This document shows positions 10,447 to 40,554 of a stretch of DNA of 64,000 nucleotides, in pieces. Below the pieces are notes generated by a model. That model did no database searches, had not been told where the DNA came from, and saw only the letters and a program-made list of their open reading frames with translations. Location: the NCBI GenBank assembly GCA_020831775.1, contig JAFIFZ010000041.1:62001-126000 (forward strand), in the 5' to 3' direction. The position numbers and the translations under genes were made by a program. Position 1 is the stretch's first letter, and each line of letters opens with the position of its first letter. This stretch comes from Phycisphaerales bacterium (GTDB taxonomy: Bacteria > Planctomycetota > Phycisphaerae > Phycisphaerales > UBA1924).

Positions 10447-12027
10447 ATGTCCGCACTTTCAGACAGTTCACTGGGCCTGCAGCCCGAACCGTTCGTCTCC
10501 TTGCCGCGCGAGGCCGCAGGCGCCGGGGTCGCCGCGGTTATGGTCACCTGGAACCGCAGGAACGTTCTGGAGAGCTCGATCCGCGCGGTCTGCGAGGCCG
10601 CGGCACGCGCTCCACTGCCAGTGCACCTCATCGTCGTCGACAACGCCTCGACCGACGGCACCGGCGAGCACCTGTCCGAACGCTGGCGCCCCGACAGCCA
10701 GCTCCGCAACGAGACCGCCCGGCCAGAGTCGCCGAAGTTCGTCGTGCTCGAACCCGCGGCTGGCCGCAGGCCATCGGGCGCCCGCGACGACGGCCTCGCC
10801 TCGTTCACGCTCGTGCGCAACAGCGAAAACCTCGGGGGTTGCGGCGGCTACCTCACGGGCATGCTCGCGGCCCGACGCATCTTCACCGGCCCCGCGCCCA
10901 AAGACGCCGAACGGATGCTCTGGCTCATCGACGACGACGCGACCGTCACGCCCGACTGCCTGGCGAAGATGCTTCAAACGATGCGCTCGGACGCGAAGAT
11001 CGGTGCGGTGGGCAGCCGCATGGCCGACCCTGCGAACCCCGGCTCGACGCTCGAAGGCCCGGTCTACTTCAGCCACAAGTCCGGCCTGCTGACCCCCACA
11101 CCGGACCACACGCCCGACGACGATCCCGACCGCCCCAGGCCGACATCGGGCGTGGTCGAGGCGGACCTGTGCGCCGCTTCGTGTCTGTTGGTGCGCGAAG
11201 CCGCGGCGGCCGACGCGGGGCTCTGGGACCACCGCTACTTCATCAACGGCGACGACGCGGAATGGTGCCTGCGCATCAAGAGCAAGGGGTGGAAGGTCGT
11301 CTGCGATCTCGACGCGGTGCACCTGCACGAGCCGTGGAGCGCGAAGGTCTCGCCCGTGCGAGAGTACTACCGCAGGCGGAACCTCTTCTGGCTCTGGCAG
11401 CGTCACCTGCCGCGGGATCGGTACCGCGCGCTGGCGCGCGAGCGGCTGCTCAAGTACGCCGGGCTGTGCGTCAGGCAAGCCGCCAGGCGCAAGCGGTACG
11501 AATCGGTGCTGACGGAGCGAGCCGCCCGCGACGCGATGCGCTCGCGCGGGGGCAGGCTCACGGTCCCCGCCCCGGAGCGGCTGGAACTCGAAGAGGCACT
11601 GCGCCGCCTGCCGCGCGGCGCCAGCGTGCTGCTGGTCGTGCCCGGGCCAAGGGCAAGGAAGATGGCCGAGCGCTGGCTGGCTCAAGCGCCGAAGGAACTG
11701 GTCGAGCGCACGATCGCGCTGACCTCCACCGCGATCGACCACCCGTGCAAACTGCCGATGCACGGATCGAGGGCGGGCCTCTTGCGTCTGCACGCGGCGC
11801 TCTTGCGTCGGCGGGTGCGTGCCGTGGTCGTGTTCGACGGCAGGTGCGAGACGCCGATCCTGATCGGGCGCGAGACATGGCGTGCTGACGAGCAGGGCGC
11901 AACAGCTATCGAACCGGGCGGATCGCTGGTCGTGCTCGGCTCGCTGGCGGGCGCGATCCCGCTTGCGCTGCGGGCGCTCTTTGGCAGGACGAGCCCGCCC
12001 CCACCCCCCGAGGTGCTGCGCTGGTGA
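10447..12027 (+). CDS. GT2-family glycosyltransferase, galactofuranosyltransferase-like
   Basis: A 526-aa cytoplasmic or peripheral GT-A enzyme. Residues 30-300 form the GT2 domain: AVMVTWNRRNVLESSI, VVDNASTDGTGEHL, NSENLGGCGGY, then the metal-binding triad in LWLIDDDATVTPDCL (Asp162-164). DDAEWCLRIKSKGWKVV, HLHEPWS and YYRRRNLFW reproduce the DxE...R...G and YYxxRN pattern of GlfT1/GlfT2-like enzymes, which add UDP-galactofuranose. The C-terminal 180 residues contain a second Rossmann-like segment (ASVLLVVPGPRARKMAERWL) I cannot assign. A UDP-galactopyranose mutase gene lies 26 kb away and would supply the donor. ATG 10447 is chosen because the family sequence begins soon after it. It converges on the alarmone hydrolase gene with a 7-nt gap. 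Confidence 0.82.
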   Translation: MSALSDSSLGLQPEPFVSLPREAAGAGVAAVMVTWNRRNVLESSIRAVCEAAARAPLPVHLIVVDNASTDGTGEHLSERWRPDSQLRNETARPESPKFVVLEPAAGRRPSGARDDGLASFTLVRNSENLGGCGGYLTGMLAARRIFTGPAPKDAERMLWLIDDDATVTPDCLAKMLQTMRSDAKIGAVGSRMADPANPGSTLEGPVYFSHKSGLLTPTPDHTPDDDPDRPRPTSGVVEADLCAASCLLVREAAAADAGLWDHRYFINGDDAEWCLRIKSKGWKVVCDLDAVHLHEPWSAKVSPVREYYRRRNLFWLWQRHLPRDRYRALARERLLKYAGLCVRQAARRKRYESVLTERAARDAMRSRGGRLTVPAPERLELEEALRRLPRGASVLLVVPGPRARKMAERWLAQAPKELVERTIALTSTAIDHPCKLPMHGSRAGLLRLHAALLRRRVRAVVVFDGRCETPILIGRETWRADEQGATAIEPGGSLVVLGSLAGAIPLALRALFGRTSPPPPPEVLRW

Positions 12028-12034
12028 AGCGGGC

Positions 12035-12613
12035 TCAGGCGCTCTGCATCCCGGCTTCGATGCGGTCGGCCAGCTCGCCGACGATGGCGATGGCGCGCTG
12101 CAGCTCGGGCCGGCCCGAGTCGTCGCGCTGGGCGATCTCGATCGCACGCCTCGCTCGCGAGACGGCCCGGCGTGTCGCCTTCGCCTCGCCGACAATGTCG
12201 CAGCAGTTGTCGTAGGTGTCGGCGAGCTTGACGAGCTTGACGCGCCAGCCAGCGTTTTCGAGGCGCTGGTCGTAGTCGGCCTCGCGCTCCGGCTCGGGCA
12301 GCAGCATGTTTTTGGTTAGAGCCGCGACCGCCTCGGCCACCGGGCGACCGAAACGCTTGTCGATGTCGTCGAAGTCCGTCGGCGTGTCCTCGATCGTGTC
12401 GTGCAGCACGGCGGCGGTGATCGCCTCCTCGTCGTCGCAGCCGAAGACATGCAGGACGGTCATCGCCACGCGCACAACATGGGCGACAAAGGGGGTCTTG
12501 CCGTCTTTGCGGCGCTGCTGGTCGTGGGCGCGGGCGGCGAACGAGACCGCCTTCTGCCACATCGGCCGCCCGAGCCCGCGAGCGTCCCCGCTTCTGTCGC
12601 CGGCGACGCTCAT
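12035..12613 (-). CDS. Small alarmone hydrolase-like HD-domain protein
   Basis: A 192-aa single-domain HD phosphohydrolase like the hydrolase half of SpoT (SAH/MESH1 type), predicted to degrade (p)ppGpp in the cytoplasm. AHDQQRRKDGKTPFVAHVVR matches the SpoT N-terminal helix with the first metal His. AVLHDTIEDTPTDFDDI holds the HD pair and the ED diad. RVKLVKLADTYDN holds the last metal Asp (KLAD). No synthetase or TGS/ACT domains are present. Its ATG at 12613 overlaps the stop of the GH35 gene (ATGA), so it is translationally coupled to that gene; the functional reason is unclear. Confidence 0.88.
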   Translation of the reverse strand: MSVAGDRSGDARGLGRPMWQKAVSFAARAHDQQRRKDGKTPFVAHVVRVAMTVLHVFGCDDEEAITAAVLHDTIEDTPTDFDDIDKRFGRPVAEAVAALTKNMLLPEPEREADYDQRLENAGWRVKLVKLADTYDNCCDIVGEAKATRRAVSRARRAIEIAQRDDSGRPELQRAIAIVGELADRIEAGMQSA

Positions 12614-15381
12614 CGGATCACGCTTCTCCCTGAAGGCTCGTGAACCAGGCGACACTTGCCCGGGTGCCCGCCTCGCTCGTCGAAGAGCAGCAGCTCGTTC
12701 GGCCCGTCGGCGTTCAGCCAGCACTCGGGCAGCCAGACGCGGTGCTGGGGCGGCACGGGCGTGCCGTCGAAGGTCGAGACCCAGTAGCGCCCGAGGTGGC
12801 GCCCGTTGAGGTAGACCTGTCCCTTGGTCAGGCTGTTGAGTTCGAGGAAGAGCGGGACGCCCGCCTCCGCCGGGTCGAAATTGCAGCGCCACCACGCGGG
12901 GCAGGCGGCGCCTTCCATGTGCGCCTTGGCGACGGGCTCGTAGGCCGCCTCCGAGGGCGCCTCCCACTTGGCGAAGGCCCAATCGGCTTTGTCGGTCACG
13001 GCGCTGACGCCTTCGAGCACGCGGACGGCGGTGCCCATGCCCTTGATCGCCGCGCCGAGCGTCTCGGCGTCCAGCTCGTCGACGAAGGCGACCTCGATCG
13101 AGTTGTTGCCCCGGGTGAGGTGCTCTTCATCGAGGAAGATGTGGCCCGTCCAGCCGGTTTCGAGGAAACGCAGCGGCGTGTCGTTGACGATCAGCACGGC
13201 ACGCGCCGGGAAGTGGTCGACGCCGAGGATGATCGGCGACTTCTTGCGGTGCATGAACGCCCACTGCACACGCTCGGTCGAGGTCACATCCCCCTCGCGG
13301 ACCTCCCACAGTGGCTTGCGGAACTCCAGCAGGTTCAATGGCGAGCTCTCGACCTGCTTGTGCTTGACGCCCTTGAGCGGCGCAACCTCCCACAGATCGC
13401 GCACAAGACCCTTCTTGTCGCCCAGGTCAGCGCCCGTCGAGTACCGCCCGAGGTTGTCGGCCAGCACCACCACCTGACGCACGCCCTTCTTCAAGGGCAG
13501 CGCAAGCTCGTCCACCGAGCCCGGGCCGAACCCGAGCAAACCCGTCTCCTCGCCATCAACAAAGACCAGCAGCCGATCGCCCGAGCAGGGCGCGATCACC
13601 TTGGGCTTGCGCGTCGCCCCAGATCGGATCGTGATGCGGTACCAACCGTACCCAGTCTGTGCGCCCAGAGGCGTGAGGTCGGCCGGGCCGTCGATCGCGG
13701 CGTAGCGCGGGCTGCTCCCGTCGATGTGCTCGCGCGTCTCGGCGCACTCCCAGCCAGAGAGGTTCGGCGCCTTGGGGCCCTTCGGCGGTTTGGAGGCGCC
13801 GGTCGTGGTCGACTGCTCGCCCTCGGCGTTGAAGACCGTGCAGTTGCGACCCTCGGGGATCGGCTGGTTGTCTGCGGTCATCCCGGCGCAGCCGAGATAG
13901 ACCGCCTCGTCGGTCGCGTACACCTTGTCGACCTGCTGCTCGGAGCAGACGACGATCGTCACGCCCTCGTGGTCGATCACCTCGGGCGTCTTGCCCTTGG
14001 GCACATTGATCTCGATCGGCGAGCCGTTGATCGAGACCAGCCCCTCGCTCCCCGAAGGACCGAAGAGCACCAGCGTCCGCCCGACGAGCGTCAGGGCGTT
14101 GAGGTTGGTGTAATCGAGCCTCGACCGGCCGGTCAGGTGCACATCGAACAGGCACCACGCGACCGCCTGCTCGCCAAGCGTCACCGGCAGCGAGGAGCCC
14201 CCCGCGAGCAGCAGCGAGCTGTGCTTGACGGCGCCGTGCGGCCCCGCAGGGTCGGCCCCGAAGACGAACACGCACGCGCCCTGCTGGCCCGAGACATGCG
14301 AGATCGAGACGCCAGAGCCCCCGCGACCGCCTCCGGCATGATCGGGGTCGAGCACCACAGGCCGGTACTCGGGGTTGGCGTGGGAAAACACCTTGCCGAA
14401 CGCCGAGGCGAACATCGAGATGCGCCGGACCGCCCCGTACGACACACCGGGCGTGCCCGCCTCGGTGACGGGCGCGTGCCGGTCGTTGCTCTGGGCGACA
14501 AACCTCGACGACCCGCCGGGCAGGCGCCCGCCGGAGAAGCCGAAGTTGGTGCCCCCGCAGAACGGGTCGATGTTGTACTGCCCGCACCCGGCGAGGATCT
14601 CCGCCAGGCGACGCTGCACCGCCATCGGCTCGGGCGGGCCCGCGTCCGCCTCGGAAAAGACAGAGGGCCCCGTCACCGAAAAATCGACCACGAGCCTCGG
14701 CTGGTCGGGCTTCACGGCCGCGAGCTGGCGCATCACCGTCAGCATCGCCTCAGACCCCGACCAGCAGTCGATCTCGCCCTCGACGCCCTGCCAGAGGTTG
14801 TTGCTGTTGACGGTCGGGACATTCAGCCCGTTTTCGCGGAGGTAGCGGTGCAGCTCGCCGAGATAGCCCCGGGCCTCGTCGTCGTGCCCGCAGGTCCAAT
14901 GGGCCTCGTTCTGCACGAGCAGGAGGGGCCCGCCCTGGCCCGGGCTGGTCACCTGCAGGTCACGGATCTGGCCCGCAAGGGCCGTCAGGAACTTCCCCGC
15001 GGCCTCAAGAAAGGGCTGGTTGGCCGAGCGGAGCTTCAAATCTGGGTTCGAGAGCAGCCACGCCGGCAGGCCCCCCATGTCCCACCCCGACCCGATATAG
15101 GGGCCCGGGCGGAGGATGCAGACCATCCCCGCCTGACCGATCAGCTCAACAAAGTGCCGGACATCGTTCTGACCCTCAAAGTCGTACGCGCCGGGCCTCG
15201 GCTCGTGGCGCGACCAGAAGACGGGCGTTTCGATGCAGTTCAGGCCGGCGTGGCGTGCGGCGGCGATCCGATCACGCCAACACTCGCGGGGCACTCTGGC
15301 GTAATGGATCGATCCACTGACAAGCCAGATCCGTCGGCCGTCGAGCATAAAGCTGCGTCCGTCGTAGGTGACTGAGGGCAT
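12610..15381 (-). CDS. GH35 beta-galactosidase-like protein with altered nucleophile site
   Basis: A 923-aa protein whose N-terminal 330 residues follow the GH35 TIM barrel: SGSIHYARVPRECWRDRI, ETPVFWSRHEPRPGAYDFEG, RPGPYIGSGWDMGGLPAWLL and CGGTNFGFSGG. The acid/base region reads LLLVQNEAHW, with Glu159 where families have ENEYG. The nucleophile region, usually SEFYTGWLDHWG, reads VVDFSVTGPSVF, putting Asp233 in place of the glutamate. The C-terminal half contains beta-sandwich and jelly-roll domains, including a closing GH35-type lectin fold (LTKGQVYLNGRHLGRYW). There is no signal peptide, so the protein appears cytoplasmic. It is coupled to the alarmone hydrolase gene downstream. The fold is confident; hydrolytic activity is doubtful. 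Confidence 0.85.
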   Translation of the reverse strand: MPSVTYDGRSFMLDGRRIWLVSGSIHYARVPRECWRDRIAAARHAGLNCIETPVFWSRHEPRPGAYDFEGQNDVRHFVELIGQAGMVCILRPGPYIGSGWDMGGLPAWLLSNPDLKLRSANQPFLEAAGKFLTALAGQIRDLQVTSPGQGGPLLLVQNEAHWTCGHDDEARGYLGELHRYLRENGLNVPTVNSNNLWQGVEGEIDCWSGSEAMLTVMRQLAAVKPDQPRLVVDFSVTGPSVFSEADAGPPEPMAVQRRLAEILAGCGQYNIDPFCGGTNFGFSGGRLPGGSSRFVAQSNDRHAPVTEAGTPGVSYGAVRRISMFASAFGKVFSHANPEYRPVVLDPDHAGGGRGGSGVSISHVSGQQGACVFVFGADPAGPHGAVKHSSLLLAGGSSLPVTLGEQAVAWCLFDVHLTGRSRLDYTNLNALTLVGRTLVLFGPSGSEGLVSINGSPIEINVPKGKTPEVIDHEGVTIVVCSEQQVDKVYATDEAVYLGCAGMTADNQPIPEGRNCTVFNAEGEQSTTTGASKPPKGPKAPNLSGWECAETREHIDGSSPRYAAIDGPADLTPLGAQTGYGWYRITIRSGATRKPKVIAPCSGDRLLVFVDGEETGLLGFGPGSVDELALPLKKGVRQVVVLADNLGRYSTGADLGDKKGLVRDLWEVAPLKGVKHKQVESSPLNLLEFRKPLWEVREGDVTSTERVQWAFMHRKKSPIILGVDHFPARAVLIVNDTPLRFLETGWTGHIFLDEEHLTRGNNSIEVAFVDELDAETLGAAIKGMGTAVRVLEGVSAVTDKADWAFAKWEAPSEAAYEPVAKAHMEGAACPAWWRCNFDPAEAGVPLFLELNSLTKGQVYLNGRHLGRYWVSTFDGTPVPPQHRVWLPECWLNADGPNELLLFDERGGHPGKCRLVHEPSGRSVIR

Positions 15382-36985: not shown

Positions 36986-37915
36986 TCAGACCGCGTCGCG
37001 GTTCATCGCCCGGGCGACTTCCTTCTCGTTCAGCGCCGCCTCGGTCCCCGTCAGACGCAGCGTCTGGTTCGCGAACGGCTTGGGCGCGATCTCGATCGCG
37101 TCGGCGCCGCGATGGCGGATCCGCGTCCCACGCGGGAGGTGGCCGAGCGCACGGGCGATCAGCTCGCCGCGGCTGGACGCGTTCAGCTTCCGGTGCAGGT
37201 TCTTGACATGGTCGTGCACCGTGTGCGGGCTGCGACCCAGCGAATCGGCGATCTGACGCACGCTCTTGCCGAGCGAGAGCTGGTCGAGCACCTGCTGCTC
37301 ACGCTCGGTCAGCCAGTTGCTCGTCCCGGTCGAGACCGGGCCGACAGCCAGCAGCGTCCGGCGAACGAGCAGCGGCAGCGTCGCGCCGAGCTGCTGCACA
37401 TGGTGATCGTGCACCAGGCTCCGCGTCGGGGCGATCAGCGTCATCAGCACGCGGCCCTTCTCGGCCTCGCCGAGCTTGCCGACGCCGACGAGCAATCCGC
37501 CGACCTGCAGGTCGCCCATCACCTTGCCCAGGGGGCCCAGGCGCCAGTCGCGCCCGCCGAGCAGGCGCTCGGCCGGGCCGATCAGCGGCGACTGACCGAG
37601 CTGGTCCAGATCCGGCGCAAAGCCCAGAGCAACCAGCCTGTCGGCCCGCGCCCTGATGCCCGCCAAGTCCGCGGACTCGACCTGATCGGAGTGGCTGGCG
37701 ACGCCAACCGCTTCGATGGTGTCGATCACGCCGCCACCATCGATCGAGCAGATGATGGTCACCGCGATCGACGCATTGCCGATAGACGCCATCGCCTCAG
37801 AGGCAAGATCCGCCCAATCGAGCGTCGCCACCGCCGGAAGCCCGCAGAGCGCCTCCGTCAATAGCGAGGTGCGCTCGAGCGTGCGCTGAAGTTCACGACC
37901 GGACTCGATGGACAT
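36986..37915 (-). CDS. LuxR-type HTH transcriptional regulator
   Basis: A 309-aa DNA-binding regulator. The N-terminal 195 residues may form a sensor fold (SIAVTIICSIDGGGVIDTIEAV, then a region of mixed strands) with no recognised ligand motif. The C-terminal helix-turn-helix, about residues 200-257, is textbook LuxR/GerE: LTEREQQVLDQLSLGKSVRQ, then IADSLGRSPHTVHDHVKNLH. A 50-residue tail follows, longer than usual. ATG 37915 is chosen because GGAGG lies 9 nt upstream; a TTG two codons earlier would be too close to it. It is divergent from the UDP-galactopyranose mutase gene, with a 379-bp repeat-rich region between, making that gene a candidate target. Confidence 0.85.
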   Translation of the reverse strand: MSIESGRELQRTLERTSLLTEALCGLPAVATLDWADLASEAMASIGNASIAVTIICSIDGGGVIDTIEAVGVASHSDQVESADLAGIRARADRLVALGFAPDLDQLGQSPLIGPAERLLGGRDWRLGPLGKVMGDLQVGGLLVGVGKLGEAEKGRVLMTLIAPTRSLVHDHHVQQLGATLPLLVRRTLLAVGPVSTGTSNWLTEREQQVLDQLSLGKSVRQIADSLGRSPHTVHDHVKNLHRKLNASSRGELIARALGHLPRGTRIRHRGADAIEIAPKPFANQTLRLTGTEAALNEKEVARAMNRDAV

Positions 37916-38294: not shown

Positions 38295-39848
38295 ATGCAC
38301 CAGAATCCCCCGCCGTCCGCCGAACCGGTGATCCCCGCCGGCACGCAGCCCCGCATCCTGATCCTCGGCGCAGGCCCCACCGGCCTCGGCGCCGCCTACA
38401 GGCTCAAGGAGCTCGGCTACAAGAATTTTGTCGTCGTCGACAGAAACGACAAGGCCGGCGGCCTCGCCCGCTCCTTCACCGATGACCACGGCTTCACCTG
38501 GGACATCGGCGGGCATGTCATGTTCAGCCACTACGACTACTACGACCAGCTCTTCGAGAAGATGATGGGCGACGAGTTCACCCTCAACAACCGCGAGAGC
38601 TGGGTCCGCATGATGGACCGCTGGGTCCCCTACCCCTTCCAGAACAACATCAAGTACCTCCCCCGCGAGGTCGCCTGCGAGTGCCTCATCGGCCTCATCA
38701 GGGCCCAGGCGACCGGCCCCGGGCCCGCCGAGGCCAAGAACTTCGGCGAGTTCATCGACGCCGTCTTCGGCGAGGGCATCGCCAAGTACTTCATGCGTCC
38801 GTACAACTTCAAGGTCTGGGCCCACCCCCCCGAGATGATGAACAAGACCTGGATCGGCGAGCGCGTCGCCGTCCTCGACTACGAGCGCGCCCTCCGAAAC
38901 CTCGTCATGGACACCGACGACTACGGCTGGGGCCCCAACAACCAGTTCAAGTACCCCCTCCGGGGCGGCACCGGCGAGTTCTACAAGCGCATCGGCGACG
39001 CCGTCAGCGAGCACCTCTCCCTCGGACGCGAGCTCGTCGAGATCGACCTCGCCTCCAAGACCGCCCGCTTCGCCGACGGCTCTGAAGAGAAGTACGACCT
39101 GCTGCTCTCGGCGATGCCGATCGATCGGCTCTGCAACGACATCTTGAAAGACCAGGCGCCGGCTCACATCCGCGAGACGGCCGCACGCCTGCTGCACTCG
39201 GGCGGGTACATGGTCGGCGTGGGCATCAAGCGTCCCTGCCCGAGCACCAAGAGCTGGATGTACTTCCCCGAGGACAACTGCCCCTTCTACCGCGTCACCT
39301 ACCTCAGCAACTACTCGCCCAACATGACCCCCGACAAAGAGAAGTTCTACTCGCTCCTCTGCGAGACCAGCCACTCCGACCACAAGCCCGTCGACGAGGC
39401 CAAGGTCATCGAGGACACCATCACAGGCCTGGAAAACGCGGGCCTGCTCGAGCCCGGCGAGCGCGACGACATCGTCACCACCTGGTGCTACCACGCCGAC
39501 TACAGCTACCCCACGCCCAGCGTCGAGCGCGACGAGATCCTCGCAGAGGTCATCCCCTGGCTGGAGCAGCACGGCATCTACAGCCGCGGTCGCTTCGGCA
39601 TGTGGAAGTACGAGGTCTCCAACACCGACCACACCCTCATGCAGGGCGTCGAGTTGGTCAACCGCTGGCTCAAGGGCGAGCCCGAGACCACCATCGGCAT
39701 CGTGTACCAGTCCACCGAGGACGGGCGCAAGGCCGCGACCCACGAGCGCTCATCGGTCGCGGGCTCGGGCGAGAAACGCCTCAAGCCGGTCGTCGTGTCT
39801 GGCTCGGGCGAAGCCGCGGGCGCTCGGCGGTCGCCAAAGACCGACTGA
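38295..39848 (+). CDS. glf: UDP-galactopyranose mutase, eukaryotic-type
   Basis: A 517-aa flavoenzyme predicted to interconvert UDP-galactopyranose and UDP-galactofuranose. The FAD-binding motif is RILILGAGPTGLGAAYRL (GAGPTG at 25-30). The remaining signatures follow those I recall for fungal/trypanosomatid mutases rather than the roughly 390-aa bacterial Glf: GGHVMFSHYDYYD, WVPYPFQNNIKYLP, FMRPYNFKVWA, GPNNQFKYPLRGGTGEFY, MYFPEDNCPFYR, SNYSPNM, YPTPSVERDEIL and SRGRFGMWKYEV with NTDHTLMQGVE. Annotation pipelines may call it a protoporphyrinogen-oxidase-like or amine oxidoreductase. It has no signal peptide. It is followed after 22 nt by the CpcT/CpeT-family lipoprotein gene. A GT2 enzyme able to use UDP-galactofuranose is encoded at 10.4 kb. 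Confidence 0.85.
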   Translation: MHQNPPPSAEPVIPAGTQPRILILGAGPTGLGAAYRLKELGYKNFVVVDRNDKAGGLARSFTDDHGFTWDIGGHVMFSHYDYYDQLFEKMMGDEFTLNNRESWVRMMDRWVPYPFQNNIKYLPREVACECLIGLIRAQATGPGPAEAKNFGEFIDAVFGEGIAKYFMRPYNFKVWAHPPEMMNKTWIGERVAVLDYERALRNLVMDTDDYGWGPNNQFKYPLRGGTGEFYKRIGDAVSEHLSLGRELVEIDLASKTARFADGSEEKYDLLLSAMPIDRLCNDILKDQAPAHIRETAARLLHSGGYMVGVGIKRPCPSTKSWMYFPEDNCPFYRVTYLSNYSPNMTPDKEKFYSLLCETSHSDHKPVDEAKVIEDTITGLENAGLLEPGERDDIVTTWCYHADYSYPTPSVERDEILAEVIPWLEQHGIYSRGRFGMWKYEVSNTDHTLMQGVELVNRWLKGEPETTIGIVYQSTEDGRKAATHERSSVAGSGEKRLKPVVVSGSGEAAGARRSPKTD

Positions 39849-39870: not shown

Positions 39871-40554
39871 ATGCCCCGCCCACGCCCGCTTTCCCGCCTG
39901 TTCGCCGGCGCCCTGCTGCTGGCTGCCCCCGCCATCGCCCTCAACGGCTGCGCCTCGGACCTCCACACGGAAGGAGAAATCCATCCAACTCCCCATTTCG
40001 TGGCCAGGGCCGAGCCACTCGCCGGCTGGATGACCGGCTCGTTCTCCAACGAGGCCCAGGCGGCAGAAGCCCCCGACCGCTTCGCGAAGGTCCAGATGCA
40101 CATCGTGCGGATCTGGCCCGAGCGCAACGACGGCGTCTGGATGTACATCGAGCAGGCGCTCGCCGCCGAGCCCCAGAGCCCCTACCGCCAACGGATCTAC
40201 CGCCTGACGCCGGCCGAGGAAAGCGTGTTTGAGCTGGACACCTTCCAGCTCCCCGAACGCGCCCGTTTCGTCGGCGCCTGGCGGAAAGACGAGCCCTTGG
40301 CCGACCTCGACCCCGACCGTGTCGACCGGCTCGACGGATGCACCGTCGTGATCCACGCCGACGGAGCGGACAGCTTCCGGGGCTCGACGATCGGCCGGGG
40401 CTGCTCCAGCCAGTTATCGGGCGCCAGCTACGCCACCAGCCACATCCGCATCTCTCCCAGCCGCATCGAATCCTGGGACCGCGGCTTCAACGCTCGGGGC
40501 GAGCAGGTCTGGGGCGCCGTCGACAGCGGGTACATTTTCGACCGCGTCGATTGA
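39871..40554 (+). CDS. CpcT/CpeT-family (T-type chromophore lyase fold) lipoprotein
   Basis: A 227-aa protein. The signal ends AIALNGC, with a probable lipidated Cys27, so it is placed in the periplasm. The mature part follows the CpcT/CpeT family: LAGWMTGSFSNEAQAAE, then MYIEQALAAEPQSPYRQRIY, then LDGCTVVIHADGADSFRGST, GRGCSSQLSGASYATSHI and SWDRGFNARGEQVWG. In cyanobacteria this fold attaches bilins to phycobiliprotein Cys155; non-photosynthetic bacteria carry homologues of unknown function. It is cotranscribed with the UDP-galactopyranose mutase (22-nt gap, GAGGAG ribosome site). Lyase activity in this organism is not supported by any visible phycobiliprotein; the fold may serve another ligand. 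Confidence 0.82.
   Translation: MPRPRPLSRLFAGALLLAAPAIALNGCASDLHTEGEIHPTPHFVARAEPLAGWMTGSFSNEAQAAEAPDRFAKVQMHIVRIWPERNDGVWMYIEQALAAEPQSPYRQRIYRLTPAEESVFELDTFQLPERARFVGAWRKDEPLADLDPDRVDRLDGCTVVIHADGADSFRGSTIGRGCSSQLSGASYATSHIRISPSRIESWDRGFNARGEQVWGAVDSGYIFDRVD

Follow-up and report, generated by a model that had tools for sequence, protein, structure and literature searches.

A eukaryotic-type UDP-galactopyranose mutase gene of Phycisphaerales belongs to a family spread across bacterial phyla

Introduction

How does a planctomycete come to encode a UDP-galactopyranose mutase (UGM) of the fungal and trypanosomatid type, and is the gene a late arrival from a eukaryote or a bacterial inheritance? 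The question is raised by one open reading frame in the window, a 64,000-nucleotide stretch of a Phycisphaerales genome (assembly 3.55 Mb, 95% complete). UGMs are split into prokaryotic and eukaryotic classes with 14–18% identity between them, the prokaryotic Glf being about 100 residues shorter than the eukaryotic type (PMC3624792). The enzyme kind is already known. A search of open-access papers turned up neither a bacterial example of a eukaryotic-type UGM nor any mention of how broadly the type occurs in bacteria. The discovery of eukaryotic GLFs was reportedly published in 2005, and no bacterial member of the type is known to us to have been assayed.

Results

Sequence and predicted fold identify a eukaryotic-type UGM

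A preliminary description of this DNA had assigned the gene to the eukaryotic type instead of the shorter bacterial Glf. The 517-aa reading frame was found exactly as described there, running from an ATG start to a TGA stop (Table 1). The translation contains the fungal and trypanosomatid sequence blocks named in that description: WVPYPFQNNI and MRPYNFKVWA match Trypanosoma cruzi UGM (TcUGM) at every residue, and YFPEDNCPFYR is identical to Aspergillus fumigatus UGM (AfUGM). Two positions differ between SRGRFGMWKYEV of the window protein and SRGRFGAWRYEV.

In a phmmer search of all PDB chains, the best match was TcUGM (4dsg, residues 18–483, E=6e-126), with AfUGM (3uka) at E=4e-110. The next families, namely amine oxidases, protoporphyrinogen oxidase and phytoene desaturase, aligned to the N-terminal FAD motif only, with E values of ~1e-6 or worse. 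Full-length similarity at the level of the type (~40% or more) is present, the protein being 45% identical to TcUGM over 480 columns and 39% identical to AfUGM, with 47% between the latter two. A profile of 35 bacterial-type rows matched the UGMs at 1e-175 to 1e-163 and everything else at 1e-14 or weaker; bacterial Glf scores 5e-9 against it.

The active site was mapped by the published AfUGM numbering with an identity check on each named residue, across 54 family rows and with residue roles taken from PMC3624792 Table 3 and PMC4192007. All AfUGM substrate contacts tested are identical in the window protein (AfUGM to window: Y104 to Y113, F106 to F115, Q107 to Q116, F158 to F166, N163 to N171, W167 to W175, R182 to R190, N207 to N215, Y317 to Y323, R327 to R333, Y419 to Y405, Y453 to Y439 and N457 to N443), as are the flavin contacts H63 (H74) and R447 (R433). 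The mapped residues are invariant in the 54 rows except F106 (49/54), N207 (53/54) and Y419 (50/54, the rest Phe). Thus the two substrate-phosphate arginines are in place (R190 and R333), together with the tyrosines of the eukaryotic type (Y323, Y405 and Y439), its specific uracil contact Gln107 (Q116), Asn207 of the 200s flap (N215) and the GGH loop beside the flavin (G61-G62-H63 in AfUGM, G72-G73-H74 here). The 200s flap has been described as unique to eukaryotic UGMs (PMC3624792). Three FAD-side positions differ from AfUGM: G456 to S442 (from the alignment), Q458 to T444 and S461 to T447.

A template-free AlphaFold (AF2) model, for which 35 sequences from the window and homologous loci were used, has a pLDDT of 86.1 and a pTM of 0.85. 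By Foldseek, UGMs rank first (4dsg: E 3e-53, TM by target 0.90, rmsd 2.1, 45% identity), and protoporphyrinogen oxidases follow at E 2.5e-24, rmsd 5.5 and 13% identity. The structure prediction suggested earlier as a check returned the UGM fold.

Profile annotation would allow the protein to be an amine or protoporphyrinogen oxidase with only a resemblance to UGM: Pfam places the protein under Amino_oxidase only (PF01593, 60 bits), and no NCBIfam model matches it above cut-off, unnamed PRK07208 models matching below. For its relatives, too, no NCBIfam model exceeds the cut-off, and only unnamed PRK07208-type models appear. However, the full-length PDB match to UGM is better by more than 100 orders of magnitude, the fold comparison favors UGM and the UGM-specific contacts are complete. 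An oxidase identity, which the preliminary description had named as one outcome that would overturn its reading, is ruled out by these three lines and has practically no probability left. The other such outcome, a lack of the two substrate-phosphate arginines, is contradicted by R190 and R333.

The main substrate is a separate matter. A pyranose/furanose mutase could share this fold and mechanism and yet act chiefly on another nucleotide sugar, such as UDP-GalNAc or dTDP-fucose. Paralogues at ~30% identity keep most of the contact residues, so the contacts alone leave the sugar unfixed, and a Gemmatimonadota neighborhood holds RmlD-like reductase domains. The Glf class also has variants of this kind, Fcf2 and the Campylobacter UDP-GalNAc mutase. 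Yet every Galp and uracil contact, Q107 and N207 included, is the same as in the characterized UDP-Galp mutases, and the identity to TcUGM is near that between two proven UDP-Galp mutases (45% and 47%). We consider a different main substrate unlikely.

Together, sequence, fold and substrate contacts agree that the window gene encodes a full-length eukaryotic-type UGM of predicted activity and not a Glf. Short of an assay, all checkable features of the type are in place.

Table 1 Coordinates of the mutase gene, its mapped residues and its neighbors in the window
Feature	Position	Strand	Basis
Divergent LuxR-type regulator, upstream	36986..37792	-	PF00196; same neighbor in 14 other Phycisphaerales loci
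Eukaryotic-type UGM gene (predicted activity)	38295..39848	+	517 aa; sequence and fold match
FAD-binding GxGxxG, residues 25–30 (GAGPTG)	38367..38384	+	Fully or almost fully conserved in 35 relatives
His74 (AfUGM His63), flavin stacking	38514..38516	+	H in 54/54 rows; role from PMC3624792 Table 3
Tyr113-Pro-Phe115-Gln116 (Y104, F106, Q107), uracil contacts	38631..38642	+	Mapping; PMC3624792 Table 3
Arg190 (AfUGM Arg182, TcUGM Arg176), diphosphate and Galp contact	38862..38864	+	R in 54/54
Asn215 (AfUGM Asn207), Galp contact, 200s flap	38937..38939	+	N in 53/54; PMC3624792
Arg333 (AfUGM and TcUGM Arg327), diphosphate contact	39291..39293	+	R in 54/54
Stretch with Arg433, Tyr439 and Asn443 (R447 FAD phosphate, Y453 diphosphate, N457 Galp)	39591..39623	+	54/54 each
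C-terminal tail, residues 469–517, outside the enzyme core	39699..39845	+	Predicted disordered, pLDDT < 50
CpeT/CpcT-family gene, directly downstream; no known sugar-metabolism link	39871..40554	+	PF06206, E=1e-50

Genome context in Phycisphaerales

The composition of the mutase gene is roughly that of its host (GC 0.655 and GC3 0.944, against 0.686 +/- 0.025 and 0.895 +/- 0.032 for the window genes). The planctomycete assignment holds, since a 97% identical gene lies on contig REET01000276.1 of the Phycisphaerales MAG PLM2.Bin57. Of 25 genomes sampled from its own family, 15 carry the mutase at 64–98% identity, counting the window genome, so the gene is no contaminant.

No bacterial-type Glf was detected in the window genome: the best TIGR00031 hit reaches 20.9 bits against a cut-off of 303.75 and lies elsewhere, and the mutase gene itself has no TIGR00031 match. 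The genome carries galE above cut-off (contig C83, 40782) and 17 GT4-type places. About 25 kb upstream of the mutase, the window also holds a GH35 beta-galactosidase gene (923 aa, 12610-15381, minus strand) and a GT2 glycosyltransferase gene (10447-12027, plus strand), neither with any sign of belonging with it.

Neighborhoods were compared over 46 Phycisphaerales loci, with genes from a codon-usage caller. An unnamed downstream gene recurs in 24 loci and an upstream lipoprotein-like gene in 18, followed by the divergent LuxR gene, an RsmD-like gene and a pyridoxal decarboxylase gene (14 each). None of the recurring neighbors in these loci is a sugar gene. In the window lineage the neighbors are the decarboxylase, LuxR, CpeT, RsmD-like and peptidase-like genes, which is not a glycan cluster.

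The type is widespread in bacteria

Scanning GTDB contigs by pattern yielded at least 559 coding relatives. Among the best 80 of these are sequences from Phycisphaerales, Gemmatimonadota, Chloroflexota, Acidobacteriota, Actinomycetota, Bacteroidota, Myxococcota (Archangium) and Desulfuromonadales, as well as two cyanobacteria-labelled MAGs. Relatives at 50–58% identity come from Gemmatimonadota, Chloroflexota, Actinomycetota, Acidobacteriota, Bacteroidota, Myxococcota and others. With TcUGM as the query, bacterial matches reach 53% (Gemmatimonadota) and 51% (Myxococcota), above the identity of TcUGM to AfUGM. The contigs titled Pleurocapsa minor (L105) and Leptolyngbya sp. (L066) carry mutases that fall inside the Chloroflexota and Phycisphaerales clades, and these MAGs are probably mislabelled or contaminated.

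The type was also seen in a second family (f50, 46–49% identity) and sporadically elsewhere among the 392 planctomycete genomes sampled, and a further paralogous group at ~30% identity is common. The lists of genomes with Glf and with eukaryotic-type UGM (~19 and 13 of the 392) share no member, but with fewer than one expected by chance the empty overlap does not establish mutual exclusion. The mutase gene of one planctomycete relative (L039, G308:C10:45328-46239) is partial with five internal stop codons, reflecting either a decayed copy or assembly errors.

Homologues on plasmids of Streptomyces and Pantoea show 31–38% identity, and the annotated ones are named FAD-dependent oxidoreductase. 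On two different Streptomyces plasmids (L145, 9016-15962; L146, 2765-9726), a divergent eukaryotic-type UGM (38%) stands first in a conserved run, followed by two unknown genes, a glycosyltransferase gene, another unknown gene, and NUDIX and phosphotransferase genes.

Two phage contigs, IMGVR_UViG_3300044646_001039 (L166, 9998-13038) and IMGVR_UViG_3300046011_008422 (L167, 100-3121), also carry eukaryotic-type UGM genes, whose products are ~48–49% identical to the window protein and 74% to each other. They adjoin a ParB/DNA-methyltransferase-like gene and a TET-associated-glycosyltransferase-like gene. The latter matches PF20691 at E=1e-6 in one contig and 0.004 (below cut-off) in the other, and also phrog_842, beta-glucosyl-HMC-alpha-glucosyltransferase. 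Terminase, portal and capsid genes follow the UGM gene group on L166. Neither contig yielded a TET/JBP or thymidylate-synthase-like gene, and the TET control matched nowhere. These gene contents hint that phage DNA may be decorated with galactofuranose.

The eukaryotic enzymes fall within a mostly bacterial clade

A mixture-model tree was rooted on the ~30% paralogues after three long rows had been excluded; the eukaryotes in it are T. cruzi and A. fumigatus only, taken from PDB alignments, the latter without residues 344–354. Phycisphaerales form one clade (support 100/100). The two eukaryotes pair (98/89) within a mostly bacterial clade (96/92) that also contains Myxococcota, Bacteroidota, one Gemmatimonadota copy, the Streptomyces plasmids, one planctomycete and the two phage contigs. 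Deep branches between bacterial groups have weak support. The comparison of fungal, protist and bacterial mutases proposed in the preliminary description thus sets both eukaryotes apart from Phycisphaerales.

That description had raised a transfer across domains. A recent transfer from a fungus or protist to planctomycetes would account for the high identity to a protist UGM, and the family is labelled eukaryotic in the literature. However, a tree constrained to join eukaryotes and Phycisphaerales was rejected (AU p=0.0001), bacterial contigs gave at least 559 pattern matches coding for relatives, the neighbors are conserved in the family and the composition is near-native. A recent transfer is thus very improbable and not supported: the gene is old in its family, the type is widespread in bacteria, and the eukaryotic enzymes sit in a different clade. 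Vertical descent within Phycisphaerales is supported by the 64–98% identity across family genomes, the fully supported clade and the shared neighbors, and the spread of the type over many bacterial phyla makes the gene an ordinary bacterial inheritance in a planctomycete.

Alternatively, eukaryotes could long ago have passed the gene to bacteria, once or several times, with later spread among the bacteria, given that eukaryotic rows lie inside the tree and that only two eukaryotes were sampled. Yet bacterial diversity is far greater and surrounds both eukaryotes on the outgroup-rooted tree, and bacterial paralogues exist at ~30% identity as well, making this direction distinctly unlikely. The second origin raised earlier, in which the eukaryotic enzyme goes back to an ancestral bacterial source, fits the tree: placing all bacterial rows together without the eukaryotes was rejected less firmly (AU p=0.02, two eukaryotic sequences). 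On these sequences, the eukaryotic enzymes appear as a single branch within a bacterial family.

A GT4-type glycosyltransferase gene accompanies the mutase in other lineages

Of 20 loci from outside Phycisphaerales, 12 carry a GT4-type gene, always of one family, that shares the strand of the mutase and lies no more than two genes away from it, directly upstream in eight. These loci belong to Chloroflexota, Actinomycetota, Gemmatimonadota and one unnamed bacterium, and the GT4 products are 31–56% identical to the Chloroflexota copy in L098. In four Phycisphaerales loci (L080, L081, L084 and L093), a GH1-like and GT4 fusion of ~900 aa lies directly upstream of the mutase. The mutase-GT4 linkage is probably ancestral, because these fusion loci make up the deepest branch of Phycisphaerales. 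Most simply read, mutase and transferase were an ancestral pair and became separated in the window lineage. The adjacency in several bacterial groups and in the deepest Phycisphaerales branch supports a role in galactofuranose transfer. In Gemmatimonadota, a GH1-like/RmlD-like fusion was also seen near the same GT4 and mutase genes.

The nearest homologue of the partner GT4 in the window genome (30% identity) is encoded on contig C81, a different contig from that of the mutase, beside genes that look polysaccharide-related as judged from their translations only. Its product is a candidate partner transferase. Homologues of the partner at 28–31% identity occur in 7 of the 25 own-family genomes, one of them without the mutase, and do not clearly track the mutase.

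Discussion

Our results suggest that the window gene very probably encodes a working UDP-galactopyranose mutase that makes UDP-galactofuranose for a surface glycan, vertically inherited in Phycisphaerales from a multi-phylum bacterial family. Here we infer the activity, substrate, acceptor glycan and partner transferase, and the chemistry is taken over from the characterized enzymes. In the proposed model, UDP-galactose would be supplied by GalE, encoded elsewhere in the genome. N5 of reduced FAD would attack C1 of UDP-galactopyranose to form a flavin-sugar iminium, and the ring would re-close as a furanose to yield UDP-galactofuranose. A glycosyltransferase, most likely of GT4 type and encoded in trans, would then pass galactofuranose to the surface glycan. 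The mutase itself would have been inherited within Phycisphaerales from the wider bacterial family, with no recent eukaryotic uptake. A search of open-access literature, judged partly by titles, found no description of galactofuranose in planctomycetes or the other bacteria concerned, and nothing in it contradicts the earlier remark that this sugar is not a known regular component of planctomycete envelopes.

The two-class picture of UGMs changes once the second class is seen, with its active site intact, in Planctomycetota, Gemmatimonadota, Chloroflexota, Actinomycetota, Acidobacteriota, Bacteroidota and Myxococcota. Genomes without Glf may still produce galactofuranose, and automatic annotation leaves the gene unnamed, with no NCBIfam model above cut-off. 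It is tempting to speculate further that “eukaryotic-type” UGM is a second, old bacterial class, that a Myxococcota-, Bacteroidota- or Gemmatimonadota-like bacterium was the source of the fungal and trypanosomatid enzymes, and that many unsuspected bacteria make galactofuranose; we hold the chances of this broader proposal to be even. The origin of a fungal and protozoan drug target becomes testable, and bacterial homologues of the fungal and trypanosomal enzyme are now on offer for structural and inhibitor work.

Among known systems, the PRK07208-type bacterial FAD proteins (NF005545–NF005549) are the next family outward. They share ~30% identity and most contact residues with the window protein, but some lack Q107, N207, R182 or G62, and they form a separate side of the tree (100/99). 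Bacterial Glf (TIGR00031; E. coli, K. pneumoniae and M. tuberculosis) would share the reaction, and has in common the wider FAD fold and the corresponding catalytic arginines. AfUGM (3uka, 3ute and 3uth), which is a tetramer, shares 39% identity, the tested substrate contacts and the flap residues R182 and N207, whereas the window protein lacks the AfUGM insertion around residues 344–354. TcUGM (4dsg/4dsh) has in common 45% identity over 480 columns, the length class, the tested substrate contacts and the fold (TM 0.90), while the window protein differs in its bacterial host, in a disordered C-terminal tail of 49 residues and in belonging to another clade of the family.
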